IMG/VR virus record: IMGVR_UViG_3300015373_000036
Location: 1-27,570 of that record
Strand: one strand, 5' to 3'
Length of the DNA stretch: 27,570 nucleotides
Origin: a virus
The position numbers were made by a program, and so were the translations under genes. How positions within the stretch are numbered: the stretch's first letter is position 1; each line of letters opens with the position of its first letter. Below the pieces are notes generated by a model, which did not search any database, was not told the origin of the DNA, and saw only the letters and a program-made list of their open reading frames with translations. This document shows positions 1,282-8,175 of the stretch, piece after piece.

Positions 1282-1509
1282 TCAGCGATGCCGTTTCTTG
1301 CCACCTGAGTGCCCCGCTGAGCCACGTTCGGCCGGTGCCCGTGCCATCGCAGACAGGTACTCGGCGAGCCGACGTTGCGCGTTCAGCACGGCCGGATGCA
1401 ACAGCGTGGCCTGCACGGTGGGCGGGCAGTCGCGCAGCTCGGGCAGTGGGATCGGCAACCATTGCTCGGCCATGTCGTGAATCACCGAGTAGTTGTCGGG
1501 TGCGGTCAT
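1282..1509 (-). CDS. Small protein of unknown function (75 aa)
   Basis: Function not recognised. The start ATG at 1509 overlaps the TGA of the holin-like gene (1506-1508) in an ATGA arrangement, which is good evidence that it is translated with that gene. The protein is soluble: a helical-looking middle (about residues 25-55) is followed by a basic tail rich in Gly, Lys and Arg. It is the last gene of the leftward operon and is followed by three stem-loops. Placement next to two holin-like genes makes a lysis-accessory role possible, but nothing in the sequence shows it. Confidence 0.7.
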   Translation of the reverse strand: MTAPDNYSVIHDMAEQWLPIPLPELRDCPPTVQATLLHPAVLNAQRRLAEYLSAMARAPAERGSAGHSGGKKRHR

Positions 1510-1811
1510 GCTCCGCTCGTATCAACAACAGGCGTAAACCCGGAAGACACAACAGGATTCGCCAGCGGCACCGCCTCGTTGGGCGTGAGATAGGTCAGCA
1601 CAGCCGTGAGAATGCTTATGGCAGTAGTGATTTGCTTCTCGTACTGCTTGGGGATCAGGAACCCGAACCGGCTGGATACCAGTGTCAGCACGGTGAGTAG
1701 CGCACCAATGCCGCTCACGATGGCCTTGCGCGCACTCTTGGCCTTGTCCTGTATCTCGGGCGGCAGGTATCCAATGAGCTTGTCCACCAAGCCAGTGATG
1801 TCGAATGCCAT
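1506..1811 (-). CDS. Holin-like two-TM membrane protein (101 aa)
   Basis: The protein resembles small mycobacteriophage holins. A short amphipathic N-terminus (IGYLPPEIQDKAKSARK) is followed by a first hydrophobic segment at about residues 31-50 (IVSGIGALLTVLTLV) and a second at about 64-80 (ITTAISILTAVLTYL). That segment is followed by LTPNEAVPLANP, a pattern typical of this family. Holins accumulate in the cytoplasmic membrane and release the lysin at the end of infection. GAGGAG lies 7 nt upstream of ATG 1811, just after the preceding gene's stop at 1823. The gene is close behind a second membrane protein and two wall hydrolases, which supports a lysis role. The exact topology is a prediction. 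Confidence 0.75.
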   Translation of the reverse strand: MAFDITGLVDKLIGYLPPEIQDKAKSARKAIVSGIGALLTVLTLVSSRFGFLIPKQYEKQITTAISILTAVLTYLTPNEAVPLANPVVSSGFTPVVDTSGA

Positions 1812-1822
1812 GCGAATCTCCT

Positions 1823-2416
1823 CTACTGTTCTGCCGGTGTCGGTTTCGGCACCGGCATGATTTCCACACGCTCACCCGGTGTGCGTATGGTCGGCGTGAT
1901 ACGCAGCCGCATCACGTACGAAACCACTGTCTGGATAACAGTTTTGATCAACAATGCGCCGAACAGTATCCAGGTGTCCTTGGACAGCGGATCGACACCG
2001 GCAAGTGTAGTCAGCACTGCGACGAGCGCAAACGTTAAATCAATTCCCAAGCCCTGCAAGAACGTTCGGCCCGACCGGCTACGAGCGTCGGCCACCACCA
2101 GCTCCTTGCCCCGCTCTGTGGTGGCCGTGATCGTCGGATGCTCCCAGTCGATGTCCTGTCCGGTGCGCACGGCGTCAATCGTCTCGTGTGCGAAATCCCC
2201 TGCGGCATCCCGCAATTGGGGCGCAGACTCGCGTATCGCCTGAGCGAAGGCCTCGCGCATGATCGCTGCGAGGTCGATGGTGCCCTGTTTGCTGGGCAGG
2301 TTCTCGGTTGGTGTAACAGGCTGTGGCGCAACAGGTTCCGGTTTCGCCGGCGGCTCGACGACAGGTTGCTGTGGCGTGTCGTCCTCGGGCTGAAATTGAT
2401 CCCACGGCAGGCTCAT
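1823..2416 (-). CDS. Second holin-like membrane protein with a long N-terminal domain (197 aa)
   Basis: The first 40 residues are proline-rich (repeated PxPV runs). They are followed by a helical soluble part with many Ala, Glu and Arg (about 45-115). Two hydrophobic segments near the C-terminus (about 122-141 with LTFALVAVLTTLAGV, and 148-169 with WILFGALLIKTVIQTVVSYV) are separated by a short polar turn. It overlaps the DUF4185 gene upstream by ATGA. A two-TM protein beside a shorter two-TM holin in mycobacteriophage lysis cassettes is often a second holin or an antiholin. Which of the two genes forms the lethal hole cannot be read from the sequence. It could also be a tail or envelope accessory protein. 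Confidence 0.65.
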   Translation of the reverse strand: MSLPWDQFQPEDDTPQQPVVEPPAKPEPVAPQPVTPTENLPSKQGTIDLAAIMREAFAQAIRESAPQLRDAAGDFAHETIDAVRTGQDIDWEHPTITATTERGKELVVADARSRSGRTFLQGLGIDLTFALVAVLTTLAGVDPLSKDTWILFGALLIKTVIQTVVSYVMRLRITPTIRTPGERVEIMPVPKPTPAEQ

Positions 2417-3741
2417 CCGAGTGACTCCTGTACTCGCGCATACAGTTTAGCGGTATCGATACCAGCCTTACCGGCCAGCGCCGCCACCATGGCCTGAGTG
2501 AAAAGCCCCTCGGCCCTTGCGTTTAAGACATGCCCAAGCTGATCGTCGGTGTCTTTTGGGTGACGTGGCCGTCCGTTGCTCATGTCGTACCACCCGCGTT
2601 CCTTGGCGAATATCTGCTCGACAGCCTCGCGCAACGTGATGTTCTCACCTTCCGGCGTGGTGATCTTTATGCTGCCTGATGCCGAAAGTTCGCGCAGCAG
2701 AAGCTCATACAGTTCTTGTGGTGTCATGGTGCCTCCGGTGTCGACGGGTGCGGGTGGTGTGGGTGCGGGTATGGGTGGTGATGGCGGTTCCACAGCCAGT
2801 GGTCCCTGTGGTACCAGCGTGTCATCGAAGCGGACCACCCAGTACGGGTCATTGGTCGCTGTGTTCCATTGCGAGACAAGGAATCTCATCCCATTCGGCT
2901 GAATCAACCGGGAACTCGGCGCGATGTATCCGCCGTAGAGTTGCGGAAAGTCTTGCCCGCGTGCGTAATCCACCCGATTCGCCCTCGACCAATCGTCGGT
3001 GGGATTGACCACCGTGAGCGCGGTCTGACAGTAGCGGTCCACGTCGAAAAAACTCAGCACACAATTGCCTTGCAGGTAGCGGAAACACAGCTCGCCGTAG
3101 CGCCCCGGCAGAATGGGGTTGCCGTTGTTGCACGGTTCCCAGTCGCCGTGCGGGAACTCTCGAGCTGCGTTGCGCCACAACCAGATTGGCTGATCACGTG
3201 CGAGCCCGTTGGTGCCGAAGATGTACACGTAGTCGCCCACCACATCGAACGTCAGCATCGTATTGCCAGGATGCCCAACATGATTCATGTTCGCATCGAG
3301 GTGCACCAGGCTCACGTACGGGTCGGTCTTCTGCCAGTCGTACAGGTCGCGAGATTGCCAGAACACCGTGCGCTTCTCACGCCCCAGACCGGCCGTCACC
3401 ATCAGCGCCGCATACCACCAATCCCCAACGCGCACAAAGTCACACGGCAGGATGGTGCTGAAATCGGGGTTGTTGTGCGGGTAGTCAAAGAGTTGTTTGC
3501 GCCGCCCATTGGGGTCGATGCCGTCCCGTGTAGGCACGCCAAGCACGTTAAGGTCATTGTCGTAGCACACAATTGAGGGTGACTGCCACTCGCCCTGCAT
3601 TCGCCAGTATTCAAAATTGTCTCCGAACATCGCTGCGACACAGTGTCTTTGATCGTCCCAGCGTAGGATGCCAAGGTCCGCCGATTCCATCGCCACCCTG
3701 GTCGTCACCCCAACGCCGGTGACGTTGTTGAGTCTAGGCAT
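2413..3741 (-). CDS. DUF4185 (GH183-type) protein, probable arabinan hydrolase (442 aa)
   Basis: Residues about 10-310 look like the DUF4185 fold. The N-terminal signature has ADLGI-WDD, then FGDNF, then GEWQSPSIV, and later GELCFRYLQGNCVLSFFD. From memory, mycobacterial members are endo-D-arabinofuranosidases (family GH183) that cut the arabinan of arabinogalactan. Activity of this phage protein is inferred. A proline-rich linker (about 318-335) joins a C-terminal helical region that contains MTPQELYELLLREL and later LGHVLNARAEGLFTQAMVAALAG, possibly an oligomerisation or attachment module. The gene overlaps the lysin upstream (ATG 3741 versus TAG 3734) and the membrane gene downstream (ATGA). 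It therefore belongs to the lysis and wall-degradation block, although a tail-fibre role is also possible. Confidence 0.75.
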   Translation of the reverse strand: MPRLNNVTGVGVTTRVAMESADLGILRWDDQRHCVAAMFGDNFEYWRMQGEWQSPSIVCYDNDLNVLGVPTRDGIDPNGRRKQLFDYPHNNPDFSTILPCDFVRVGDWWYAALMVTAGLGREKRTVFWQSRDLYDWQKTDPYVSLVHLDANMNHVGHPGNTMLTFDVVGDYVYIFGTNGLARDQPIWLWRNAAREFPHGDWEPCNNGNPILPGRYGELCFRYLQGNCVLSFFDVDRYCQTALTVVNPTDDWSRANRVDYARGQDFPQLYGGYIAPSSRLIQPNGMRFLVSQWNTATNDPYWVVRFDDTLVPQGPLAVEPPSPPIPAPTPPAPVDTGGTMTPQELYELLLRELSASGSIKITTPEGENITLREAVEQIFAKERGWYDMSNGRPRHPKDTDDQLGHVLNARAEGLFTQAMVAALAGKAGIDTAKLYARVQESLG

Positions 3742-4771
3742 TGAACTGCGCTCCTATCGCGCCGCATAGCTCCTCGATGTCTGACGTCGAAAGATCAAGC
3801 GGCCCACCAGTATCCGGCTCCTTGATGGCCTCGGGCAATCCGAACACGCTGTACAGCTCGGCCAAATTGTATGGCGTCCAATTCATGTCGACCGGCTGAC
3901 CAGGCCACGGCATCACGTCGGTAGCCCGGTCGGTGTACTGATGGGCGAACGCCTCACGCGCCACGGTGTTCTGTGTGACGCCGGTCAAATCGCCTGGCCT
4001 GCCGTTGTATTGGGGAATCACCAGCTCGAGTGCGTACGGTCGTTTCAGCCATAATCCACTGTCCGCGTTGGGATTCCAGTAACCGATCACCCGGCGCTGA
4101 TTGCCGTACCAGCCGCGCATCCGATTGATTTCGTCGTTCACTTCCGCAGACTGGTCGCCCCGTATCCTGCCCTGGTCACCCTCCACGTCGACCATCGTTA
4201 ATGTGCTGTCGTGCAACCACATTCCATGATCCATCAGAATCTGCCGGTGCAGATCGCAATTGGCCTGCCCCGGCCGAAAGAAGTAGTACGCGATCACGAT
4301 GCTCAACTGGTCACTGGCCAGCAATTCCAGTGCGGCAGCACAATTCTCAGCGACGAGAGCATCCTCGGTGTCGCCGGTGTTGGTGCGAAAGCACCACACG
4401 CCGTACTGGTATTCCTTTGTGACAGCGGTCTTTTGGTACTGCGACACGTCGGCCCAGTAGGTGCCGCCATCACTGGGTGTGACCGGCTTGCGATCCATCA
4501 CCAGGTCGGTGCTCTTGCGAAAGAAGCTGAATCCGTCGGAGCGAATCTTGCGCGTGATGAAGTCCGCAGTGCGTGGGTTCCGATACGTGTCAAAGCCCAT
4601 CTGCCAATGCATTTCGTCTTGCGGATTGCCGTTCCATACCTCGCCGCCCCACCGGACCACACCCTCGTAGTAGTCCAACAGCTCGTTGATGGTGTCCTGC
4701 TGGTCGCGAGAGAACGTCTCATAGGCATGGAACGGATGATCGTTCCAGTTTAAATCCATTGCACTGCCGCT
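3734..4771 (-). CDS. Lysin A, main segment: M15 peptidase remainder + GH25 muramidase (second frame)
   Basis: This segment starts at the codons for SGSAMD and carries the rest of an M15 zinc peptidase, including the second histidine motif MHWQ. It is followed by a GH25-like muramidase: YWADVSQYQ near its start, VDVEGD holding the DxE pair, and AFAHQYTD. With the N-terminal segment at 4782-5012 it gives a lysin of about 421-425 aa that would cut the peptide stem and the glycan of peptidoglycan. The frame is +1 relative to the N-terminal segment. This reading frame is open back to a TTG at 4891, but the codons between 4891 and 4772 overlap the N-terminal segment and look like shadow. The stop overlaps the start of the DUF4185 gene. 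It could instead be a tail-tip lysin. Confidence 0.75.
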   Translation of the reverse strand, partial: SGSAMDLNWNDHPFHAYETFSRDQQDTINELLDYYEGVVRWGGEVWNGNPQDEMHWQMGFDTYRNPRTADFITRKIRSDGFSFFRKSTDLVMDRKPVTPSDGGTYWADVSQYQKTAVTKEYQYGVWCFRTNTGDTEDALVAENCAAALELLASDQLSIVIAYYFFRPGQANCDLHRQILMDHGMWLHDSTLTMVDVEGDQGRIRGDQSAEVNDEINRMRGWYGNQRRVIGYWNPNADSGLWLKRPYALELVIPQYNGRPGDLTGVTQNTVAREAFAHQYTDRATDVMPWPGQPVDMNWTPYNLAELYSVFGLPEAIKEPDTGGPLDLSTSDIEELCGAIGAQFNA

Positions 4772-4784
4772 GAATTCGGCTTCA
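4772..4784 (-). other. 13-nt interruption at CTT-TGA inside the lysin zinc motif
   Basis: The N-terminal segment ends ...Ser-Asn-His-Leu at codon CTT (4787-4785), directly followed by TGA. After 13 nt (TGAAGCCGAATTC on the minus strand) the other frame continues with Ser-Gly-Ser-Ala-Met-Asp. Removing exactly these 13 nt gives SNHLSGSAMD, which matches the M15 zinc motif SxHxxGxAxD. A simple +1 shift at CTT-TGA instead inserts Glu-Ala-Glu-Phe and breaks the His-to-Gly spacing. CUU-UGA is also the codon pair at the +1 shift site of bacterial prfB, though no purine-rich Shine-Dalgarno-like sequence lies just upstream here. Confidence 0.7.
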
Positions 4785-5012
4785 AAGGTGGTTGGATGTA
4801 GCCACAGAGTTTGTGGGTGTCCAACCGCCTTCGTCAGTACCTCCTCTCGAGTTCTGCAAGCTCTCAATGAACAAATGATAGTCTGCCGCAAAGGCTTTCA
4901 AGATTGTCGAGGGCTGCCCTTGCTGTAGTGGAATCATGATGTCCACACCAGGGATGGTCGAGCGATCCAATTGGTTGGAACCACATTGGGGCCAACCGTT
5001 TTCGGTGATCAT
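4782..5012 (-). CDS. Lysin A, N-terminal segment of the M15 peptidase (76 aa, first frame)
   Basis: The start ATG at 5012 follows the preceding stop (5020) by a few bases, with AGGAG about 5 nt upstream. The sequence opens MITENGWPQCGS, has QGQPSTILKAFAADYHLFIE in the middle and ends in WTPTNSVATSNHL. This is typical of the N-terminal half of D-Ala-D-Ala-carboxypeptidase-like (M15) domains in actinobacteriophage lysins. It contains only the first zinc-ligand histidine (His75). Alone it cannot be active, because the aspartate (SGSAMD) and the second histidine lie in the other frame at 3734-4771. Either a recoding event joins the two parts or the gene is broken. Confidence 0.75.
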   Translation of the reverse strand: MITENGWPQCGSNQLDRSTIPGVDIMIPLQQGQPSTILKAFAADYHLFIESLQNSRGGTDEGGWTPTNSVATSNHL

Positions 5013-5995: not shown

Positions 5996-6937
5996 TCAGA
6001 TGTGAACCTCGACAGTGGCAGCGACCCAGCTACCCACGTTGGTGCCTTGGGCTATCGCACCATCCGACGTAGTGAGGTCCTTACTGTTCGCGCAGATGTG
6101 TGCAACGTTGGTGCTGCCGGTGGCCGATGCCTGCCGGGTGTAACCCGTTGGCGCAGCGGGCCATACCAGACCAGAGCCGCCCTGGCCGTAGAAGTGCAAC
6201 AGCATCGAGGTGTCATCGGTTCTGCTCATCGTGACGGCAGGTGCCGTCAGCGCACCACCCACGGCACCGTTAATCCCATGTCCGCCAATGGGATTGGACG
6301 CGTTCGCGCCACGCAGCACGATGGCGAACAAGCCGGTGTTTCCGCTCCACACACCGGACGTGTGATTGGTGGCCGTCGCGATGCAATAGACGGTACGGAT
6401 GTTGGTAGTGCCGCCACCGGCACCGCTGTCAATGTCTATCCAGTTCGGAACCGTCCCTCCCGCAGCGGGTTTCGTAACAGCCGTCGACAACCTGACCGCT
6501 GCGATAAGGATGGTGTCGCCAACGTTGTGGGCAGGCAACGGAATTGACGTAGCATCATCGGTGGCCACCGGAGTACCGACAACGCTGACCACGAGTGTGC
6601 CTGCCGCCGTTGCCGTTAGGCTTCCATTGCCGGTGAACGGTGCCGTCCTCAAGTACGCTGCAACGAGTACGGCCGTCATTGCACCGCTACCAGCAAGCGC
6701 CGCAAGGATATTCAGCCTCGGACTGACCAGCGGAGAGAGCATGGTGCCGCCACCACTGAACGCCGTCGCCATCGTCACCTTGATCAACATGCTTGCCAGA
6801 TCAAGTGCGCCACTGCCGGTCAATGTTGTTGTGGTACCGAACTTTTGGATGACCTCAGCCGACAGCGCGCCGCCACCGCTGAACCCGACAGATGCCGAGG
6901 TACCCATAGAGACTATGGCACTTAGTGTTCCGACCAT
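5996..6937 (-). CDS. Minor tail protein with glycine-rich repeats, copy 2 of a tandem pair (313 aa)
   Basis: The first 120 residues hold about five repeats of the form hydrophobic-x-G-x-G-x-hydrophobic (FSGGGALSA, LTGSGALDL, FSGGGTMLS, LAGSGAMTA, FTGNGSLTA) spaced about 20-30 residues apart. The last 190 residues are a paralog of the C-terminal domain of the upstream gene. Shared blocks include LPAHNVGD, NHTSGVW, PIGGH, GALTAPAVTM, STNVAHIC and a terminal TVEVHI. This layout (repeat stalk plus compact domain) suits a tail fibre or tip protein, which is inferred from context. Its start ATG overlaps the stop of the upstream copy (TAATG). Confidence 0.75.
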   Translation of the reverse strand: MVGTLSAIVSMGTSASVGFSGGGALSAEVIQKFGTTTTLTGSGALDLASMLIKVTMATAFSGGGTMLSPLVSPRLNILAALAGSGAMTAVLVAAYLRTAPFTGNGSLTATAAGTLVVSVVGTPVATDDATSIPLPAHNVGDTILIAAVRLSTAVTKPAAGGTVPNWIDIDSGAGGGTTNIRTVYCIATATNHTSGVWSGNTGLFAIVLRGANASNPIGGHGINGAVGGALTAPAVTMSRTDDTSMLLHFYGQGGSGLVWPAAPTGYTRQASATGSTNVAHICANSKDLTTSDGAIAQGTNVGSWVAATVEVHI

Positions 6938-6958
6938 TAGATGTGAACCTCGACAGTG
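5998..6958. repeat. Nucleotide repeats between the duplicated tail genes
   Basis: An exact 20-nt repeat (agatgtgaacctcgacagtg) lies at 5998-6017 and 6939-6958, covering the 3' ends of the two paralogous genes. A second pair, 6345-6382 and 7283-7320, is identical except for one base over 38 nt. The copies are offset by about 940 bp, one gene length, as expected of a tandem gene duplication whose C-terminal domains are still kept similar. Confidence 0.85.
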
Positions 6959-8175
6959 AGAGCGATGAAAGCACCGGTCGTAACCAAGGCCGATGAACCG
7001 TCAGATGTGGTGACATTCTTTGTGTTCATGCAGATGTGGGCAACGTTGGTGCTACTTGTCGACGAGACTTGCGTGGTGCAACCCGCTGGTGGCGGGTCCC
7101 ACACCAGGTTGGCGCTACCTCTCCCGTAGATGTAGAACAGCTCCGAGGTACCGTCTGTCTTGGTCATGGTGACAGCGGGAGCGGTCAGGGCACCCGAGAT
7201 ACCGCCAGCGATGGCATGCCCGCCAATCGGCGAGGAGGGATTGTGTCCGCGTAATACCACGGCGCACAACGCAGTTGCTGAACTCCACACACCGGACGTG
7301 TGATTGTTGGCCGTCGCGATTGCCCATGCGGTACGCCCGTTGACCGTGCCACCACCGGCACCGTTGTCGATGTCGATGAAGTTCGGAACTGTGCCGCCCG
7401 CAGTGGGTTTCGTGATCGCACTACTCAGTCTTGCTGCCGCCATGATGATCAGATCACCAACGTTGTGGGCGGGCAACGTAATTGACGTCGCCTCGGCTGC
7501 GACCGCCGCACCGACGATGGTGACCGCATTGACACTGCCCGACACCGTAGCCGACAGGCTGCCGCCACCGGAGAACGCAGGCGAACTCTGAGTTACCTTG
7601 GCGGCCATAGCCGTTAGGCTTCCATCCCCAGACAGGTTCGTACCGATGGCGTACTTCTGACTGAGCGCAAACGCCAAAGTGCCTGTGCCACTACCTGTAT
7701 TCGAGTAAAGCGGCTGCACACCCGCCGACAGGCCATCGGGTGCCAGGAACCCACCGGCCGTAGTGGCAGCGAAAGCGCCACTGCCGGAAAGACTTACCGG
7801 GTAACCATGCTGGACTATCGCTGTCAGCCCATCGTTGAGGAATGTTGCATACTCGCCGCCACCGATGAAATTGGCTGTGCACGAATGTGTTTCAAATCCC
7901 GGTATGATCAGCGAGCCGTCACCGGACAGCGGCACCAGGCACGTCTTGCGGGGTGCCGCCACCGCAGCCAGCGCACCGCCACCGGCGAACCCGGCTTGCT
8001 TTGAAAGATGCGGTACGAGAACAGCATTCAAGCTGCCGTCACCCTGTAGCTGAACGACCTTCTCCAGTAACGCGAACCAACTGCCATAACGCCTGCGTGG
8101 TTGCGTGACAATGGATTCCACCCATGATGGGCCGGTCTGTCGTTGTGCCATAACAGGATTCACGGACCAGCTCAC
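6937..8175 (-). CDS. Minor tail protein with glycine-rich repeats, copy 1 of a tandem pair (412 aa)
   Basis: GTG 8175 overlaps the TGA of the preceding gene (GTGA). ATG 8151 is an alternative start. After a short unique N-terminus there are about eight glycine-rich repeats (for example FAGGGALAAV, LSGDGSLII, LSGSGAFAA, LSGDGSLTA, FSGGGSLSA) through about residue 220. A C-terminal domain of about 190 residues follows, clearly paralogous to the next gene by eye. The repeat array is longer than in the copy (about eight against five), so the two differ mainly in stalk length. A virion tail-fibre or tip role is inferred from position after the baseplate genes and from repeat architecture. No enzymatic motif is visible. 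Confidence 0.78.
   Translation of the reverse strand: MSWSVNPVMAQRQTGPSWVESIVTQPRRRYGSWFALLEKVVQLQGDGSLNAVLVPHLSKQAGFAGGGALAAVAAPRKTCLVPLSGDGSLIIPGFETHSCTANFIGGGEYATFLNDGLTAIVQHGYPVSLSGSGAFAATTAGGFLAPDGLSAGVQPLYSNTGSGTGTLAFALSQKYAIGTNLSGDGSLTAMAAKVTQSSPAFSGGGSLSATVSGSVNAVTIVGAAVAAEATSITLPAHNVGDLIIMAAARLSSAITKPTAGGTVPNFIDIDNGAGGGTVNGRTAWAIATANNHTSGVWSSATALCAVVLRGHNPSSPIGGHAIAGGISGALTAPAVTMTKTDGTSELFYIYGRGSANLVWDPPPAGCTTQVSSTSSTNVAHICMNTKNVTTSDGSSALVTTGAFIALTVEVHI

Follow-up and report, generated by a model that had tools for sequence, protein, structure and literature searches.

Interruption of an M15–GH25 phage lysin gene within its zinc-site motif, with a different insert in the closest relative

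Organisation of the lysin locus

The sequence analysed here, referred to as the window, is the 27,570-nt IMG/VR record of an uncultured virus, a soil phage whose portal, major head and tape-measure genes form a single minus-strand array. The minus strand also carries the lysin gene (5012–3734), and the features of this locus are listed in Table 1. ORF1 is preceded by a strong AGGAG Shine–Dalgarno sequence and runs from the ATG at 5012 to a TGA at 4784–4782, with the C-terminus TNSVATSNHL. The second frame begins SGSAMDLNW and is open as far as the TAG at 3734. Between the two frames lie 13 nt (4784–4772), which read TGAAGCCGAATTC on the gene strand. A preliminary description of this DNA had reported a frame ending in SNHL-TGA and SGSAMD resuming 13 nt further on, and both the ORF coordinates and the PHROG profiles bear this out. 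Its statement that removal of the 13 nt restores SNHLSGSAMD also holds, and relatives have the motif contiguous; a +1 move at CTT-TGA joins the frames too, as it had said, and leaves EAEF within the motif. The ATG at 4759 has no Shine–Dalgarno sequence (dG −2.3 kcal/mol vs a background median of −2.8).

Table 1. Features of the interrupted lysin gene and the neighbouring lysis cassette genes in the window
Feature	Position	Strand	Basis or remark
ORF1 (76 aa), N-terminal M15 peptidase half-domain	4782..5012	−	phrog_317 match and Shine–Dalgarno sequence
13-nt insertion vs intact relatives, opening with an in-frame TGA	4772..4784	−	Alignment with L001, L002 and L004
Zinc-motif codons for SGSA, read in the second frame and lying before the putative restart ATG	4760..4771	−	Second part of SxHxxGxAxD
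ORF2, MDLNW... from ATG 4759, C-terminal half of M15 with MHWQ, then GH25, 341 aa	3734..4759	−	
GH25 muramidase domain, DVE catalytic motif and C-terminal tail	3737..4465	−	Profile match to 4kru and AF2 model
DUF4185 gene (GH183 endo-D-arabinanase family), overlapping the ORF2 stop	2413..3741	−	PF13810, E 1e-35
Cassette gene of unknown function, phrog_32276	1823..2416	−	Downstream in the cassette
Small cassette gene, possibly holin-like, 47% identical in G001	1506..1811	−	Downstream in the cassette

DUF4185/GH183 is an arabinanase family (PMC10115798). Lysin A is also followed by DUF4185 on Rhodococcus plasmids and in mycobacteriophage Phabba; Myrna and ScoobyDoobyDoo give matches like those of Phabba. 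Large Rhodococcus plasmids (L363 and L365–L367) carry a phage-like cassette with an M15–GH25 lysin whose zinc motif is intact, and in the plasmid cassettes DUF4185 adjoins the lysin where annotated. The R. opacus strain 9 plasmid L364 (1408–2926) has a frame break in a Pro-rich linker, with overlapping annotations as ‘M15 metallopeptidase’ and ‘hypothetical’. Like the window, L364 has a frame-broken M15–GH25 lysin upstream of DUF4185; there, the frame is lost in the linker that joins the two domains. Elsewhere in the window, two adjacent minus-strand ORFs (5996–6937 and 6937–8175) resemble each other at the C-terminus (...TSDG...TVEVHI) and contain recurring GSGAL-type segments, from which they are probably a tandem duplication of a tail-associated gene.

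Distribution of the interruption among relatives

IMG/VR was scanned with separate profiles for the C-terminal and N-terminal halves, so that an intact motif was not a requirement. The motif is uninterrupted in 79 of 80 C-half loci and in all 80 N-half loci. A spaced DNA pattern (NHL...MDLNW) has about 80 true matches in IMG/VR, all with a spacing of 36 nt vs 49 nt in the window; it matches the window once and none of 100 shuffles. L194, L227, L236, L246 and L272, which the DNA pattern scan raised as length variants, proved to be unrelated chance matches. The collection of isolate phages yielded 1,100 matching records, and each of the 60 inspected contains one uninterrupted match. No close copy was found in prokaryote genomes. 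M15 lysin matches were likewise not found in G002–G014, sister phages by their capsid, in a search run without a positive control. One of these, the 10-kb contig G002 (L173; IMGVR_UViG_3300015372_000068), which also gave no M15 lysin match in that search, encodes a capsid protein 100% identical to that of the window, so the phage of the window has been sampled twice.

The only other interrupted copy among those scanned is that of the closest relative of the window, G001 (IMGVR_UViG_3300036785_000350). There, ORF1 stops at SNHLGGT-TAA, and 5 additional nt put the following MDLNW in a different frame. The inserts differ (+13 nt with TGA in the window, +5 nt with TAA and in the other register in G001) and fall in the same motif. 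An ATG coincides with the Met of GxAMD in both phages; in G001 the TAA sits five nt before it, and a weak Shine–Dalgarno sequence is present (−5.0 kcal/mol). Identity between the window and G001 is 68% for ORF1, 66% for ORF2, 75% for the DUF4185 gene and 47% for the small gene, whereas genes outside the lysis cassette show at most weak similarity (24–31%). The cassette is thus common to largely unrelated phages and has been passed from phage to phage; the lysin is interrupted in each of its two known copies. In the alignment with relatives proposed in the preliminary description, the insert is missing from intact relatives, and the closest relative has a different insert and a different stop.

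Conservation of the two halves

Both halves are homologous to phage M15 endolysins and occupy adjacent profile positions. In the PHROG endolysin profile phrog_317, ORF1 matches positions 2–80 (E 9e-24) and the second frame 82–170 (5e-23); in phrog_1512 they match positions 11–80 and 81–162, respectively. The endolysin homology is cut with no residues lost, far beyond chance. The residues of SxHxxGxAxD and the later His are all present but are spread over two frames, and no single chain holds them. Intact relatives match PF13539 at 1e-9 and 2e-6, and ORF2 alone is below the cut-off. Of the 25 M15 columns with at least 90% conservation across 144 intact homologues, none is changed in the window and two are changed in G001. 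For the GH25 domain, the AF2 model has a pLDDT of 92, and its ten PDB matches with E ≤ 0.001 can be recognised as lysozymes or lysins of the GH25 family; a profile of 31 sequences matches 4kru (E 2e-7), and the catalytic D-V-E is invariant in 31 sequences. The earlier claim that the halves are otherwise intact thus agrees with both the M15 columns and the GH25 fold.

Between the window and G001, pN/pS is 0.25 for ORF1, 0.33 for the M15 C-terminal half and 0.33 for GH25, with synonymous sites saturated (pS 0.69–0.82). The sequences show no sign of old decay in either M15 half; a young lesion would look alike. The unscarred halves mean that the splits are young or that the halves are still functional.

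Proposed reading: two insertions and restart at the motif ATG

We regard it as about an even proposition that separate stop-bearing insertions have split an M15–GH25 lysin A at its zinc site in the two phages, that the C-terminal half with GH25 is restarted, and that the single-chain M15 activity is lost. A small frame-breaking insertion would have landed in the zinc-site codons of the two-domain lysin A, and ribosomes would terminate at the insert's own TGA. Some would probably reinitiate at the motif ATG, which follows after 22 nt in the window and after 5 nt in G001, giving a product with the M15 C-terminal half and the whole GH25 domain. As this ATG has no Shine–Dalgarno sequence in the window and a weak one in G001, translational coupling would be needed. 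GH25 and the downstream arabinanase would remain expressed while single-chain M15 activity would be lost, and the different insert of G001 would have the same outcome. The loss of one among several wall activities can be tolerable: phage Ms6 forms plaques with only the N-truncated Lysin241 (PMC3111421), and the cassette also encodes GH25 and the DUF4185/GH183 arabinanase. Lysins divided in the linker, as in Gordonia phages and on plasmid L364, are further precedents.

Every motif codon is kept in each phage and extra bases are added, which argues for insertion into an intact gene and not for a shared old split that has drifted. A single ancestral split with a drifting spacer is disfavoured because all motif codons are retained although synonymous sites are saturated; had the split been old and ORF2 started at the ATG, the window should no longer have its SGSA codons, which would go untranslated. 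An origin of the 13 nt by duplication was also considered and rejected: a 12-nt copy was not found elsewhere in the window, in G001 or in 362 loci.

Two figures count against separate random insertions. The chance that two random positions fall within about 10 nt in a gene of ~1,270 nt is ~0.015 (~1.5%), a figure set before the rarity of broken copies is counted. An in-frame stop is expected in a random insert with a probability of about 0.13–0.32 for a 13-mer and 0.03 for a 5-mer, and both inserts have one. Ascertainment through reinitiation-permissive sites was rejected as the cause: positions compatible with reinitiation in relatives are not restricted to the motif and so cannot account for the co-location. 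Taken with the low chance of co-location, this makes the recurrence within the same ~20 bp a hint that this stretch is a hot spot or a nuclease target, or that selection favours a cut in it.

Alternative explanations

That the two actinophages sharing the cassette keep its lysin divided in the zinc site on purpose, through an undescribed decoding event or as a two-chain metallopeptidase, seems to us somewhat unlikely; if true, the divided lysin could stay inactive until lysis. A selected split enzyme, in which ORF1 would supply the first zinc His and ORF2 the Asp and the second His of one assembled M15 site, is fairly unlikely. Two otherwise largely unrelated phages are split at the same location, an ATG lies closely behind the stop in both, the halves are unscarred, and related phages often have lysin A divided into adjacent genes, but with the cut in the linker. 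The cut, however, falls between two metal ligands of one loop, a start of ORF2 at the ATG would leave the conserved SGSA codons of the window untranslated, and we know of no M15 enzyme that assembles from two such chains, which counts against this arrangement.

In Gordonia phages, the division of lysA falls between the domains (PMC9671378). Those of Troje and Reyja resemble the window in the order of an M15/L-Ala-D-Glu peptidase followed by a glycosyl hydrolase in two adjacent cistrons; their split lies in the linker and leaves the whole M15 domain intact, whereas the window is cut inside the zinc motif. The window therefore does not have the complete domain per cistron of a two-gene lysin A, M15 being divided. 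The lysin A of Fowlmouth and Cuke, which ranks with the nearest full-length homologues from isolates (48% over ORF2), is likewise a fused M15–GH25 protein, but in one uninterrupted ORF with a contiguous SNHLSGTAVD. The LysA384/LysA241 pair of phage Ms6 also uses an internal start within the lysin gene to give a C-terminal product; there the long ORF is intact and shares its frame with the short form, whereas the window has no long ORF.

Programmed recoding (+1 at CTT-TGA or a 13-nt bypass), which would give a full-length lysin in the window and need another form of recoding in G001, is unlikely on the features of the sequence. CTT-TGA is the conserved shift site of RF2 (prfB), and the RF2 sites have an internal Shine–Dalgarno sequence and nearly always UGA-C (PMC5009743). 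The window shares the codon pair, both halves are conserved (pN/pS 0.25–0.33), the SGSA codons before the restart ATG are kept perfectly, and the interruption is found in both known cassette members. Nevertheless, the CTT has no Shine–Dalgarno-like stimulator upstream and the base after UGA is A (TCCAACCAC-CTT-TGA-A), so that the prfB stimulators are missing. The pair is not conserved in the closest relative: G001 has ACT-TAA and would require a −1 shift at an unrelated codon without a slippery run. In the +1 product, moreover, two of the zinc ligands would be pushed apart by four additional residues. By eye, the predicted RNA folds at the two sites have no stimulator-like structure in common. 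As for bypassing, T4 gene 60 also has a short out-of-frame insert right behind a stop in an enzyme gene; its insert is 50 nt vs 13 nt, and the window has no matched GGA-like codons. Upstream of the stop, no codon recurs as a triplet that restores the motif, and matched take-off and landing codons restoring it are present in neither the window nor G001.

An assembly or strain-mixture artefact in the metagenomic contigs is quite unlikely. Both sequences are uncultured IMG/VR contigs, a second copy of either allele was not found, and an EcoRI site lies within the 13 nt. Yet inserts of several bases occur at the same motif in two independent contigs, are unlike homopolymer errors and make a simple sequencing error unlikely; the remaining long ORFs of the window and G001 appear uninterrupted, and GAATTC occurs 10 times in the window vs 5.7 expected. 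A nuclease target in the conserved zinc-site DNA (for a homing endonuclease, CRISPR or a similar system), with the inserts left as scars or as changes that protect against cutting, is a very unlikely explanation. It would account for two different inserts in the same conserved codons and has a parallel in the nuclease-target origin proposed for the T4 gene 60 insert (PMC5009743), but relatives with an intron or intein at the motif were not found in about 160 scanned loci, and 0 of 224 mycobacteriophage lysins are interrupted by an intron or intein (PMC3314691).

Among the four readings left open by the preliminary description, a frame-breaking insertion fits best; bypassing and the +1 shift are disfavoured, and sequencing error is unlikely.

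Implications

Known splits of endolysin genes, found in several phage groups, lie between domains. Division of the catalytic metal site, with different inserts in both known copies of the cassette, would mean that one wall-cutting activity can be easily discarded; alternatively, the repeated split of the metal site would mean a hidden way to join or assemble the enzyme. The pattern looks like repeated splitting or loss of one enzyme half, and not like known ribosome-skipping.
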